Source: an uncultured Bacteroidota bacterium (GTDB lineage Bacteria > Bacteroidota > Bacteroidia > Chitinophagales > Chitinophagaceae). Taken from it: 64,000 bases of DNA. Position 1 is the stretch's first letter; each line of letters begins with the position of its first letter. The DNA is taken from the NCBI GenBank assembly GCA_903835005.1, contig CAILLK010000108.1:1-64000 (forward strand). Reading direction: 5' to 3'. This document shows positions 60,645 to 64,000 of this stretch, in pieces. The notes beneath the pieces were generated by a model. That model saw nothing but the letters and a program-made list of their open reading frames with translations. It was not told the DNA's origin and made no database searches. The position numbers and the translations under genes were made by a program.

Positions 60645-61109
60645 TCAGGAGAGCAGTTTTTGCCTGAGGAGGAACTCCAATTGCTCGTTGGAAACAGTGA
60701 GTTTACTGTTGAGTTCTTTCTCCGCAATACGCTCATTATATACATCATAAGCAGCTGCTATAACCATATCCAACTCCTCTTCATTCCATGGTTTTGTGAG
60801 GTAATGATAGATCTTCCCTTTATTTATAGCATCTACCACTGCGCTCATATCGGTATAGCCGGTTAATAATATCCTTACAGGGTCTGGAAACTCCTCCAGG
60901 ATTGACTCAAGAAACTCTACACCAGTCATTTGTGGCATTCTCTGATCAGTAATGATGATGTTGACAGGACTGGTGCTCAACTTTTTTTTTGCTTCCTCGC
61001 CACTAATTGCCGTAAGTATATTATATTTAGTGCGAAAAACAGCCTTAAATGAAATGAGGTTGTTTATTTCGTCATCGACATATAATATGTTTATTTTATG
61101 AACTGACAT
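60645..61109 (-). CDS. Single-domain response regulator with coiled tail
   Basis: The receiver domain has all key residues: ILYVDDE (acidic pair), IIITDQRMPQMTG (phospho-Asp), LLTGYTD (Thr) and YHYLTKPWNEEEL (Lys). The 30-residue tail, ERIAEKELNSKLTVSNEQLE, is a coiled helix with no DNA-binding output. It probably acts on a protein partner. No kinase is adjacent. It is divergent from the GNAT-like gene, with about 110 bp between them. Confidence 0.9.
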   Translation of the reverse strand: MSVHKINILYVDDEINNLISFKAVFRTKYNILTAISGEEAKKKLSTSPVNIIITDQRMPQMTGVEFLESILEEFPDPVRILLTGYTDMSAVVDAINKGKIYHYLTKPWNEEELDMVIAAAYDVYNERIAEKELNSKLTVSNEQLEFLLRQKLLS

Positions 61110-61145
61110 ACCAACCTATTAAGAAGCTCCCTAAATTTGTGACAA

Positions 61146-61153
61146 CAAAGATA
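61146..61153 (-). promoter_or_regulatory. -7 box for the response regulator
   Basis: Minus-strand TATCTTTG matches TAnnTTTG, 36 nt before the ATG at 61109. Confidence 0.5.
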
Positions 61154-61289
61154 CAATTTAGATTTGTGAAAGAAAGCGATTGTAATGGTACAAAAATAAT
61201 ATTTTTATTAAAAGCAATGATTGTTTAGTTTTTTACATTACGTATGCAATTTGTATTATTATTTATACATTATTATTAGTAGAAAATTA

Positions 61290-61997
61290 TTGGAACAATT
61301 TAAATTAGTCATTCGTGTATTCAGAGCCAAAGATGATCTTGTCTCTTGTGAAAAATATGTGGAAGGTCATACAAAAGTGCTCCGGATTTATGGTATTTCC
61401 ATGATTACTTCAGCCAAAGTAAAATGGTTTGATGATCCGGATACTTATGTTATCATGGTAGAGTCGGAAAACGGAGATAAGATATACGGAGGCGCCCGGA
61501 TACAAGTTGCCAAGGGAAATCTCGCATTGCCAATTGAAGATGCACTAACTAAATTTGACAACAACATACATAAGTATGTAGCTGACCGGATTCCGAATGG
61601 AGTAGGTGAGTTATGTGGTTTATGGAATTCAAGAGAGGTAGCCGGCCTGGGAGTAGGAAGTATTTATTTAGGCAGGGTGGGGGTAGCTCTGGCAATGCAA
61701 TTGAAACTGGCAAATCTTTATGCTTTATGTGCTCCGGCTACAGTAAATAATTGCATGAGAGTAGGGTTTCTGGTAGATGAAAGACTTGGAAATGATGGCG
61801 CGTTTTTTTATCCAAAAGAAGGACTTGTTGCAACCGCTGTTATACTTTCAGATGTGCAGGAATTGTCAACAGCAGAGCCGAGTGAGCGGAGCAAAATATT
61901 TGAACTGAGCCGATCACCTATCCAGCATAAGTTTGAAATATCGCCAAGACAAAAGGAAATTGAGATAGATTATAATCTCAGTATTCAGGATATTTAG
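61290..61997 (+). CDS. GNAT-like acyltransferase of unknown function (autoinducer-synthase-like layout)
   Basis: The protein reads FKLVIRVFRAKDDLVSCEKY, then MVESENGDKIYGGARIQVAKG, GELCGLWNSREVAGLGVGSIY and NLYALCAPATVNNCMRVGFLV. The order (GGARI strand, E-L/C-G-L-W strand, conserved helix, then C-x-P and RxGF) is like the LuxI/FeeM branch of the GNAT fold. I know no close family by name. There is no ATG upstream of codon 58; the TTG at 61290 (frame open from 61221) is my guess. It precedes the E1-nitroreductase gene by 53 bases. Confidence 0.55.
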   Translation: MEQFKLVIRVFRAKDDLVSCEKYVEGHTKVLRIYGISMITSAKVKWFDDPDTYVIMVESENGDKIYGGARIQVAKGNLALPIEDALTKFDNNIHKYVADRIPNGVGELCGLWNSREVAGLGVGSIYLGRVGVALAMQLKLANLYALCAPATVNNCMRVGFLVDERLGNDGAFFYPKEGLVATAVILSDVQELSTAEPSERSKIFELSRSPIQHKFEISPRQKEIEIDYNLSIQDI

Positions 61998-62050
61998 TGT
62001 TAATGATAGAAAACGCCTGATTTTTTGATAAAAGAAAATTTACAGATAAA

Positions 62051-64000
62051 GTGGACTCAAATATTGAAATATTAAGGGAACAAAACAGGCTGCTCAATCA
62101 AATTTATCAACCTGTTTTTTTCAGGTTGACTGTAGAGGAGGACAAAAGCCGATTCAATGGATTAATTGAGTCTACTAAGGTTTTTGTTTCGGACGAAATT
62201 TATGATCAGCTGAAAGAACTGATTAAAAGCAGGCATCCGTATGCAGATTTCAAGGCAGCGGATTATGAATCTCATATCAGCAAACATCTGAACGGTTATG
62301 CTATAAACGAGTATGGTGTATGGGTATACTATCCCTGGTCAAACAGACTGGTACACCTGCTTGACGAAACAGAATTTATTGAATTGCGCACATCGGCAAA
62401 CAAAAATAAGATTACGATTGCCGAGCGTACTATACTGGCCGGTAAAAAAGTGGGTGTTATCGGGTTATCGGTAGGGCAATCTGTATCCGTTACCCTTGCA
62501 TTGGAGCGGGGATGTGGGGAGTTGCGGCTGGCTGACTTTGACACACTTGAACTGAATAATCTGAACAGGATACGCACGGGAGTTCACAATCTTGGTATTT
62601 ACAAAGCATATTCTGTAGCCCGCGAGATAGCGGAAATAGACCCTTTTTTTAAAGTGGTCTGCTTTACTGAAGGGATTACTGAAGAAAATATCAATGAGTT
62701 TTTAACCGGTGGCGGAAAGCTGGATGTGGTAATTGATGAGTGCGACAGTGTAAACATCAAAATACTTTGCCGGATAAAAGCAAAAGCCCTGCATATACCA
62801 GTTCTTATGGAAGCAAGCGACCGGGGTACTTTTGATGTGGAGCGTTACGACCTGCATCCTGAAATGCCGATCATGCATGGATGGCTCGATCACCTGGAAC
62901 TGGATTTTGAGGTACTGAAAAACTTAAAAACCAATGAAGAAAAGGTGCCTTATATGCTGCCCATTTCTGGGCTGGAGACATTATCGGCACGGATGAGGGC
63001 ATCCATGATTGAGTTGAAGAGCACTATTACTACCTGGCCTCAGCTGGCAACAGCCGTAACCCTGGGCGGTGCATTGGCGGCTGATACCTGCCGTCGCATT
63101 TTCCTTGATCAGTTTACCGATTCGGGCAGATACTTTATAGATCTGGAATCACTGATACCAGATACAAGGCCCGGGAAAGAATTTATTCCTGCAGTTCATA
63201 AACCTGCCCTTACAATTGAACGAATGGAAGAACTGGCTGAGCTGGTTATAAACAGTTTGCCAGCATGTAGTTTGATTCTTAATGAAAACCAAGTAAGCGA
63301 ACTGGTTACAGAAGCTATAAAAGCGCCATCGGCAGGTAATTCCCAGCCTTGGAAATGGTATTTCAACAAGGGATATTTATTGCTGTTTTATGAAGATACC
63401 GGCATATTATCCTTTGGCGATCATAGCCGCAGGGCATCGTGCCTGGCCCTGGGTGCGGCAATTGAGAACCTGGAACTGACGGCTTATCACAAAGGTATTA
63501 AAACCGGATTACATGCCTTCCCGCTAAACGACCAATCACAGCTGGCTGCGGCTTTTACTTTTTCGGAGCATGCGCAAGACAGCAATAATTATGCATATGG
63601 GCATCTTGTAAATTATATTGATGAGCGGCAAACCAACCGGAACACCGGTACCAGGGAAAATATTGCAGACGATGTATTGATGAAAATAACTGAAGCTGCC
63701 GCCAGTGTGCCCGGGGCTTCGTTGATTTTGAAAAATACTGCAGAGGAAATAAATACCATGGCCGCTCTGAACGGTAGCGCGGAACGACTGAAATTACTAC
63801 ATCCGGAAGGCCATTTTGAATTTTTTGAAAAGGAATTAATATGGGATGATAAGGATGACAATAACCGGAAAGACGGAATTAATCTAAGCGGGTTATGTAT
63901 TTCTGGCCAGGAGCAAATAGCCTTGAAAATGATCAGAAGCCCCGAGGCCATAAAATTACTTGCTGATTGGAATGGGGGGCGTGCACTGGAATATATAGGA
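62051..64000 (+). CDS. E1-like (ThiF) and nitroreductase fusion protein, Rv1355c/MoeY-like (partial, runs off window)
   Basis: From a GTG at 62051 the frame stays open for 650 codons to the window edge. Residues of about 128-350 are a ThiF/E1 domain: GKKVGVIGLSVGQSVS replaces the usual GxGxxG, then LADFDTLELNNLNRI with the Arg that contacts ATP, YKAYSVA, and VIDECDS. I see neither zinc cysteines nor an obvious catalytic Cys. From about 415 an FMN nitroreductase domain begins, EAIKAPSAGNSQPWKWYF, with GDHSRRASCLALGAAIENL. This matches the family annotated in mycobacteria as Rv1355c/MoeY. Its chemistry is unknown. Confidence 0.8.
   Translation, partial: MDSNIEILREQNRLLNQIYQPVFFRLTVEEDKSRFNGLIESTKVFVSDEIYDQLKELIKSRHPYADFKAADYESHISKHLNGYAINEYGVWVYYPWSNRLVHLLDETEFIELRTSANKNKITIAERTILAGKKVGVIGLSVGQSVSVTLALERGCGELRLADFDTLELNNLNRIRTGVHNLGIYKAYSVAREIAEIDPFFKVVCFTEGITEENINEFLTGGGKLDVVIDECDSVNIKILCRIKAKALHIPVLMEASDRGTFDVERYDLHPEMPIMHGWLDHLELDFEVLKNLKTNEEKVPYMLPISGLETLSARMRASMIELKSTITTWPQLATAVTLGGALAADTCRRIFLDQFTDSGRYFIDLESLIPDTRPGKEFIPAVHKPALTIERMEELAELVINSLPACSLILNENQVSELVTEAIKAPSAGNSQPWKWYFNKGYLLLFYEDTGILSFGDHSRRASCLALGAAIENLELTAYHKGIKTGLHAFPLNDQSQLAAAFTFSEHAQDSNNYAYGHLVNYIDERQTNRNTGTRENIADDVLMKITEAAASVPGASLILKNTAEEINTMAALNGSAERLKLLHPEGHFEFFEKELIWDDKDDNNRKDGINLSGLCISGQEQIALKMIRSPEAIKLLADWNGGRALEYIG

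Follow-up and report, generated by a model that had tools for sequence, protein, structure and literature searches.

We analysed a 64,000-base stretch of DNA (the window) that makes up positions 1-64000 of an 81,351-base contig from an uncultured Bacteroidota bacterium, and we read the genes past position 64000 from the remaining contig. Near the end of the window lie two genes on the forward strand, one for a GNAT-type acyltransferase and one for a fusion of an adenylating E1 (ThiF) domain with a flavin mononucleotide (FMN) nitroreductase domain. We think it fairly probable that these are the 5' half of a conserved Bacteroidota operon that makes and senses a small lipid signal derived from an N-acyl amino acid, and that encodes its own receptor. 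A preliminary description of the window had pointed to this pair, and the pair is real: both open reading frames (ORFs) were verified (61221..61997, + strand, beginning with TTG; 62051.., + strand, beginning with GTG and open at 64000), and the domains score over the Pfam cut-offs. Because the similarity of its relatives sets in near 61290, the GNAT probably starts at the TTG at 61290 and not at 61221, where its longest ORF begins. The resulting protein of 235 aa (61290..61997, + strand) is a putative N-acyl amino acid synthase (NAS) of the FeeM/N-acyl homoserine lactone (AHL) synthase fold, as judged from the ORF, an AlphaFold2 model and matches of that model in PDB. The fusion gene (62051..64369, + strand, of which 62051..64000 lies in the window) is intact and encodes 772 aa.

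Three further genes follow on the + strand past the window: that for a 7TMR-DISM sensor kinase of 722 aa (64418-66586; Pfam) and, from ORF reading of the contig, those for a kinase with a receiver (REC) domain (REC-kinase; 369 aa, 66590-67699) and for a REC protein of 133 aa (67705-68106). With these ORF starts, the intergenic gaps from GNAT through fusion, kinase and REC-kinase to REC gene are 53, 48, 3 and 5 bp, and given the short gaps and common strand the five genes read as one operon. The sensor kinase has the architecture of 7TMR-DISM histidine kinases, with a DISMED ectodomain (PF07696, 7TMR-DISMED2, 96.4 bits), a seven-transmembrane (7TM) domain (PF07695, 7TMR-DISM_7TM, 174.5 bits) and a kinase part (PF02518, 84.2 bits). 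On the other side of the GNAT gene, and divergent from it, is the gene for a stand-alone response regulator (60645..61109, - strand) that consists of a receiver (Pfam Response_reg, 69.5 bits) and a short C-terminal tail, with no DNA-binding domain over cut-off in Pfam; its REC domain is 45% identical over 143 aa to that of the REC-kinase of the operon. The phosphorylation sites are kept across the loci compared: the kinase His in 140 of 142 (the other two being gaps), the REC-kinase Asp in 126 of 126 and its His in 125 of 126, and the response regulator Asp in 132 of 132. The preliminary description had proposed to look beyond position 64000 for export, carrier or regulator genes; regulators were indeed found there (the sensor kinase, the REC-kinase and the REC protein), whereas Pfam scans of the operon genes showed no exporter, carrier-like protein or DNA-binding regulator.

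The linkage among these genes is conserved. In a sample of 296 genomes from the phylum, the GNAT was matched in 13; counting that of the window, 12 of these matches span the full length. An E1 gene adjoined the GNAT gene in 11 of the 12 full-length loci, the twelfth carrying a gene for an ICMT-family methyltransferase instead, and a 7TM kinase gene adjoined it in all 12. The REC-kinase came next in 11 of the 12 (at L061, which ends with its contig, the next ORF matches only in its REC part, over 148 residues), and a stand-alone response regulator lay inside the stretch read in 9. The preliminary description had named a lack of conserved linkage between GNAT and E1 as grounds for giving up its proposal, and on this point the proposal held. 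When 84,980 species genomes were scanned more widely, 550 relatives were confirmed, and we kept the top-scoring 80 as named loci; because they are the best 80 of 550, these lean to close relatives. All 80 have the kinase gene on the strand of the GNAT gene and one or two genes further on, the REC-kinase followed in 74 (three of the six misses are contig ends), and the response regulator was near in 76.

In a separate draw of 395 genomes from the class Bacteroidia, 76 genomes had a GNAT match (78 matches in all), and the kinase lay downstream on the same strand within 6 kb in 75 of the 78, at a median distance of 161 bp. Of the three matches without a kinase, one lies at a contig end, one is weak and one is a fragment of 26 residues. 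The neighbourhood reading of this class sample covers all but 13 of its GNAT genomes. We also ran the search in reverse with a sensor-only profile, taking matches to E 1e-30, scoring at most five kinase candidates per genome and keeping the best 91 rows (to 249 bits): of the listed kinases at or above 290 bits, 73 of 74 adjoin a GNAT, compared to 1 of the next 17 (249 to 290 bits), although seeding the profile from GNAT loci and scoring no more than five candidates per genome both favour a sharp split. A response regulator of the window's divergent type was near the GNAT in 132 of the 142 loci in which both GNAT and kinase were called; thus, this gene, which the preliminary description thought might control or respond to the pair, does belong to the system. 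The ORFs of these loci were picked by a simple longest-first script, and L240 (in which the picker did not call the GNAT) and loci lacking a part were left out. We consider the co-inherited sensor kinase, which lies past the edge of the window, to be the more interesting feature of the locus. Kinases of the operon's type also occur without a GNAT, and eight such loci were fetched (L209-L216); from their sequence, the ORFs directly upstream of the kinase in L209 and L210 look transpeptidase-like and GroEL-like, respectively.

The fusion belongs to the Rv1355c family of NCBIfam (NF005901), which it matches with 759.2 bits at full length and 654.9 bits in its window part (cut-off 476). An N-terminal region precedes the ThiF/E1 match (PF00899, 59.4 bits; 62444-62806) and the match to the FMN nitroreductase (FDO) domain (PF00881, 39.8 bits; from 63284), both above the Pfam cut-offs. 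None of the adenylation residues D162, D164, R173, K185 and D232 varies among the 125 E1 proteins of the fetched loci; D232 aligns with a conserved Asp of a mycobacterial relative and was matched to D217 of TrzS Msmeg via the ThiF motif only. The fusion is 33% identical to a relative borne on a mycobacterial plasmid, and the two have in common the stretch of the FMN domain around QPW and the motif RQTNRN. R526, R530 and Q695 are likewise common to the fusion and its mycobacterial relative, and may include the counterparts of R540 and Q651 of the FDO domain of TrzS Msmeg. An ATP loop "altered" to GLSVGQS had been reported for the fusion in the preliminary description. This was a misreading, and we rejected the loop as an anomaly: G-(L/M)-S-V-G is a hallmark of this E1 family, in which G, S, V and G never vary among the 125 E1 proteins and the second position is L in 120 and M in 5, and GLSVG also occurs in one mycobacterial Rv1355c-family protein. 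In contrast, the statement that the fusion lacks zinc cysteines holds, since no CxxC is present in its sequence.

A ThiF domain might also point to an ordinary cofactor pathway or to the modification of a protein or peptide, by sulphur-carrier or ubiquitin-like activation of the MoeB/ThiF kind, and the fusion does have weaker matches to the ThiF and MoeB models of NCBIfam. We rejected an E1 of the molybdopterin or thiamine type, as all of these matches fall below their cut-offs while that to NF005901 lies above, and we consider the cofactor or carrier explanation very improbable: the fusion has no CxxC pair, the operon genes include no carrier-like protein, and an oxidase or a methyltransferase can replace the E1 while the GNAT stays (see below), so that a carrier-activating E1 would make no sense.

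The GNAT could be placed by its predicted fold. The window's protein has no curated family at E<=1 in Pfam or NCBIfam, and none of 82 aligned members (the window's included) matches a curated NAS or autoinducer family at E<=0.01 in either database; Pfam matches among the 82 were to DUF3182 in six (best 5.9e-5), Acetyltransf_1 in three (best 0.0022) and LicP_NPro in one, with none in NCBIfam, and a profile search against the sequences in PDB gave a best E of only 0.32. However, an AlphaFold2 model from the 82 sequences (pLDDT 92.2, pTM 0.91) has FeeM as the five top chains in a Foldseek search of PDB (E 1.7e-7 to 2.8e-6; 2g0b, TMt 0.75), followed by the AHL synthases BjaI, RpaI, MesI and LasI, such that FeeM and AHL synthases occupy ranks 1-15. 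VIA-align 2 also placed FeeM first (Z 16.6, 178 residues, rmsd 2.7), with LasI (Z 15.3) and TofI (Z 15.2) next. Thus, the model has the FeeM/AHL-synthase version of the GNAT fold, in agreement with the autoinducer-synthase-like layout noted in the preliminary description. With entries within 1 Z counted as ties, two ordinary GNATs tie with FeeM (Z 15.8 and 15.7, 145 residues each), which weighs against a synthase assignment, since the fold by itself therefore leaves the function of the GNAT undecided. At two loci, L068 and L226, two GNAT genes stand side by side, and these might give two products or a heteromer.

The enzyme pair is of a known kind, and the Bacteroidota setting with a sensor kinase is the new part. 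In the N-acyl tryptazolone pathway of mycolic-acid bacteria, TrzA (Rv1356c) acylates L-Trp, and the acylated product undergoes ring closure and then desaturation by TrzS (Rv1355c) to give an N-acyl tryptazolone (PMC12856293). N-acyl tyrazolone pathways are described for OxzAB of Pseudoalteromonas rubra and TyzACB of M. tuberculosis (PMC10404671, PMC12856293). As in TrzA-TrzS, an acyltransferase gene lies here beside a ThiF-FDO fusion of the same NCBIfam family, with the conserved ThiF Asp, the FMN-domain motifs and the GLSVG loop in common with the mycobacterial relative; unlike TrzA-TrzS, the acyltransferase sequences have no detectable relation (in one test), and the M. tuberculosis locus is reported beside cyclic di-GMP genes, not a 7TM kinase (PMC12856293). 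The three activities of OxzAB and TyzACB would be the same here, and the model of TyzA, which is reported to resemble FeeM and BjaI (PMC10404671), is like that of the present GNAT closest to FeeM. In contrast, TyzB and TyzC are separate proteins while ThiF and FDO are fused here, and the sections consulted in the two papers mention no sensor kinase for OxzAB or TyzACB (PMC10404671, PMC12856293). FeeM itself (PDB 2g0b), the closest solved fold by Foldseek and first by VIA-align 2, is only 12-17% identical to the GNAT, and no Pfam or NCBIfam model clearly covers the latter. We therefore rejected the earlier view of the pair as undescribed, since TrzAS, TyzACB and OxzAB have its architecture and make N-acyl oxazolones in the same way (PMC12856293, PMC10404671). 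The idea that the two proteins would activate, acylate and oxidise an amino acid appears right as far as homology and predicted fold tell. Thus, the observation in the preliminary description was confirmed and its interpretation partly supported.

By homology to TrzS, the fusion would cyclise and desaturate an N-acyl amino acid. A related possibility is that the product is an N-acyl-dehydro-amino acid or ester of the stieleriacine or thalassotalic-acid type, with the oxazolone as a transient; this has the same signal logic and overlaps with our preferred explanation, and we regard it as unlikely. In its favour, ThiF, nitroreductase and NAS genes occur in producers of N-acyl dehydrotyrosine, for which no oxazolone is reported (PMC12479983), and loci with an oxidase in place of the E1 (see below) would be expected to give ringless dehydro or hydroxylated products. 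On the other side, TrzS homologues yield tryptazolones both in vitro and in vivo (PMC12856293). The N-acyl tyrosine producers listed in one source come from Pseudomonadota, Actinomycetota and Planctomycetota (PMC12479983).

The tailoring gene that accompanies the GNAT differs among loci. Across the 142 loci it encodes an E1-nitroreductase in 85, an E1 alone in 36, a S-adenosylmethionine (SAM) methyltransferase in 8, a vanillyl-alcohol oxidase (VAO)-type FAD oxidase in 7, an E1 with a degenerate C-terminal domain in 2 and an ICMT-type methyltransferase in 1; none was called in 3, of which L061 and L233 are contig ends and L247 is not. A GNAT tree of 92 rows requires at least 16 changes of tailoring type, with five enzyme types in the 142 loci. 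The two E1 proteins with a degenerate domain are Dyadobacter fusions (L086:7106-9007 and L089:6752-8992) whose C-terminal part has no recognisable FMN-domain motifs, which suggests a nitroreductase domain that is decaying or of changed function; they were grouped with the E1-nitroreductases in the 92-row tree and kept apart in the 129-row trees described below. A search of PDB sequences with the VAO-type protein of L065 gave p-cresol methylhydroxylase, eugenol oxidase and vanillyl-alcohol oxidase among its matches (best match E 1.6e-70, to an entry named FAD-binding oxidoreductase). The remaining six were recognised as VAO-type because they resemble the L065 protein (567-733 bits), one also matching Pfam FAD_binding_4. 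All seven have a YR motif, and four have the exact string GKNWGYG. Since p-cresol methylhydroxylase, eugenol oxidase and vanillyl-alcohol oxidase oxidise para-substituted phenols, tyrosine is suggested as the acylated amino acid in the VAO loci, and because the GNAT of the window is 76-77% identical to that of L065, our guess for the window locus is tyrosine or a near analogue. Each of these tailoring enzyme types would make sense acting on an N-acyl amino acid.

Sequence comparisons indicate that the 7TM part of the kinase tracks the tailoring gene better than do the kinase half, the GNAT or the REC-kinase. Across 114 loci, identities had medians of 0.56 for the response regulator, 0.53 for the kinase half, 0.43 for the GNAT, 0.41 for the REC-kinase, 0.39 for the 7TM part and 0.25 for DISMED2. 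In partial correlations with GNAT identity (104 of the 114 loci, after dropping those >95% identical in GNAT) controlled for kinase, REC-kinase and response regulator, the 7TM part gave r = 0.44 and DISMED2 0.22. Values for comparison, each obtained with a separate set of controls, were 0.09 for the response regulator, -0.05 for the linker and 0.03 for the catalytic ATPase part. Moreover, in disjoint pairs of loci, 7TM identity corrected for kinase, REC-kinase and response regulator was lower if the tailoring enzymes differed, both in a first set (14 differing versus 35 same pairs, p 0.0019) and in a second (31 versus 45, p 1.5e-5), in which the same-pairs were matched independently and a locus may sit in both groups. 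Trees of the separate parts agree. These were quick searches with SH-aLRT support only, on 129 rows after dropping loci >95% identical in GNAT (fewer in the kinase, REC-kinase and response regulator trees, with 127, 113 and 121 rows). The VAO label changes 2 times on the 7TM tree, compared to 5 on the kinase, GNAT and DISMED2 trees and 4 on the REC-kinase tree; the SAM-methyltransferase label changes 2 times on the 7TM tree, compared to 6 each on the kinase, GNAT and response regulator trees, 4 on the DISMED2 tree and 3 on the REC-kinase tree (with 3 such rows). With all labels counted, there are 21 changes on the 7TM tree, 29 on the kinase tree and 28 on the GNAT and DISMED2 trees, with 25 each for REC-kinase and response regulator on fewer rows.

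The clearest swap is locus L065. It groups with the window's kin in the GNAT (support 97), kinase (100) and REC-kinase (100) trees and with the VAO loci in the 7TM tree (97); its stretch holds no response regulator, and it is hence absent from that tree. Compared to the window, the L065 GNAT and REC-kinase are each 76% identical, windows along the kinase half are 55-95% identical and those along the sensor, to about residue 366, are 25-62%. In approximately unbiased (AU) tests on 30 loci (29 in the kinase set), the 7TM data rejected a clade of L065 with the window (p 4e-67) and did not reject one VAO clade (p 0.24), whereas a single VAO clade was rejected by the kinase (p 8e-109) and GNAT (p 2e-44) data. 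A second example is L072 (E1-nitroreductase) versus L074 (VAO), which are 85% identical in GNAT, 81% in kinase, 83% in REC-kinase and 89% in response regulator, with the 7TM part at 51% and DISMED2 at 34%. In these two comparisons, as in L070/L075 and L102/L133, identity climbs inside the kinase gene near the last transmembrane segments and the linker, as read from 40-residue windows, not from formal breakpoint mapping. L072 itself is labelled Azovibrio, probably a binning error, and its GNAT is identical to that of the Bacteroides-labelled L073.

Several results weigh against receptor and enzyme having been exchanged together to keep a signal and its sensor matched. Partial correlation with the GNAT is also seen for the REC-kinase (r 0.30) and, to a slight extent, for the DHp part (0.13). 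Among the disjoint pairs, those of the first set with different tailoring are more distant in general (0.68 versus 0.79), and the GNAT, DISMED2 and the linker shift the same way as the 7TM part, at weaker p values (0.0016 to 0.032). The response regulator tree also has just 2 VAO changes (with only 5 VAO rows), the distinction between E1 and E1-nitroreductase follows the 7TM part weakly (E1 label changes: 7TM 15, GNAT 16, kinase 19), and the periplasmic DISMED2 part does not track tailoring (5 changes for VAO, 28 for all labels). The AU groups were named after the trees had been seen, and the 6-row window clade in its exact form is itself mildly rejected by the kinase data (p 0.014). Moreover, the tailoring gene of VAO and methyltransferase loci sits directly before the kinase gene; thus, one recombination tract could carry both without any functional need. 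The coupling of synthesis and sensing is also weakened by the lack of an exporter or DNA-binding regulator among the operon genes noted above, by L227 (G475:C1:6897000-6909500), which has an E1 and a weak GNAT relative without a 7TM kinase and is a possible kinase-free version of the system, and by the GNAT showing no detectable sequence similarity to the protein beside the Rv1355c homologue of the mycobacterial plasmid. The last comparison, made with hhalign, gave a probability of 0.2%, and one with the neighbour of a Streptomyces E1 gave 0.3%; the A2 profile matched 0 of 1 record for that plasmid.

These points bear on an alternative in which the kinase responds not to the product but to some other cue, for example envelope stress or a sugar. 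The operon would then be a pathway for an antibiotic-like or lipid metabolite (an oxazolone or N-acyl amino acid) under two-component control, and the linkage would be regulatory only. 7TMR-DISM kinases are widespread sensors of many cues. The failure of DISMED2 to track tailoring and the possible single recombination tract fit this alternative as well, and N-acyl tyrosine derivatives with antimicrobial activity are known (PMC12856293). However, several pairs with different tailoring show the shift in identity at a place inside the kinase gene, the response regulator, which lies across the swapped genes, hardly co-varies with the GNAT, and it is not obvious why the sensor of some other cue should change alongside a tailoring enzyme. 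We consider this alternative unlikely, and the association of 7TM part with tailoring enzyme is the pattern expected of signal/receptor specificity groups.

The layout of the operon resembles that of the quorum-sensing operon phcBSRQ of Ralstonia, which likewise has a signal enzyme, a membrane histidine kinase, a REC-kinase without a DNA-binding domain and a REC-only regulator in one locus (PMC8578825, PMC6989110). There too, the REC domains of the stand-alone regulator and the REC-kinase (PhcQ and PhcR) are reported to resemble each other. Unlike phc, the signal enzyme here would be a GNAT with a tailoring enzyme, not a PhcB-type methyltransferase, the sensor is a 7TMR-DISM protein and the stand-alone regulator gene is divergent; no counterpart of PhcA was seen in the stretch read. 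By analogy, the operon may work like phc, with the GNAT as putative signal synthase, and we do not claim it as a phc operon. Among 3495 records of REC-kinase relatives on plasmids, two were examined; on a Paraburkholderia plasmid, a row of genes for a methyltransferase, a histidine kinase and two response regulators encodes REC domains 31-34% identical to the stand-alone response regulator.

Considering together the observed operon layout, linkage, kept catalytic residues, predicted fold and 7TM-tailoring association, we propose the following mechanism. The GNAT, judged from its predicted fold, would acylate an amino acid, which is probably aromatic, at its amino group. The E1 domain, by homology to TrzS, would then activate the carboxylate with ATP and close the oxazolone ring, which the FMN domain would desaturate, and the product may be a diffusible or a membrane lipid. 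The 7TMR-DISM histidine kinase of the operon would detect this product, mainly by its 7TM part, and signal by phosphotransfer to the REC-kinase and to the stand-alone response regulators. From one lineage to the next, one tailoring enzyme gives way to another and the 7TM part of the receptor tends to go along, while the kinase half and the REC-kinase stay. In its broader form, we put at slightly better than even the joint reading that pheromone systems of this sort are present in many Bacteroidota, with one operon both producing and detecting derivatives of N-acyl amino acids that vary by lineage (oxazolones, dehydro or oxidised forms, methylated forms), and that new specificity groups arise by exchange of a cassette of tailoring enzyme and receptor 7TM on a constant core of kinase and REC-kinase.

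If true, such a pheromone system would give N-acyl oxazolones a role; their physiological role has been named a major unresolved question (PMC12856293). With the kinase tied to the synthase in 75 of 78 matches, this question becomes directly testable in environmental genera that carry the operon and grow in the laboratory, such as Pedobacter and Dyadobacter. Among the open-licence PMC papers listed in searches aimed at it, we found no description of a kinase-linked or lipid signalling system of this sort in Bacteroidota, and the operon would thus be a lipid signalling system in a phylum without such a description in the papers searched. Moreover, a receptor part swapped with the tailoring enzyme would be a natural experiment on the evolution of signal specificity.

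Ahead of the GNAT gene, in the divergent intergenic region, a pattern match (61136..61166, + strand) points to a possible promoter of the Bacteroidota type, TTTG-N19-TAGATTTG. This is a weak call, because the pattern is not above chance across the window (4 matches compared to 3.4 on average in shuffles).

We also noted E1 proteins in other settings. A plasmid of Nitratidesulfovibrio vulgaris encodes, amid PEP-CTERM genes, a long protein annotated as a ThiF family adenylyltransferase (L176:4135-7059); its C-terminal part matches the nitroreductase half of the fusion, and it is possibly a larger fusion of the same enzyme set. In the same genome as the window, a CBASS-type defence operon identified with PADLOC (G000:C125, L008:5424-10429), with an oligonucleotide cyclase, an E1-E2 protein, a JAB protein and a SAVED/peptidase effector, accounts for one of five ThiF matches. 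Elsewhere in that genome, the last two of four consecutive ORFs (G000:C69, L007:4543-7592) match the BilC (JAB) and BilD (E1) models of PADLOC, the first two matching none of its models, and these four ORFs may be a divergent Bil-like operon.

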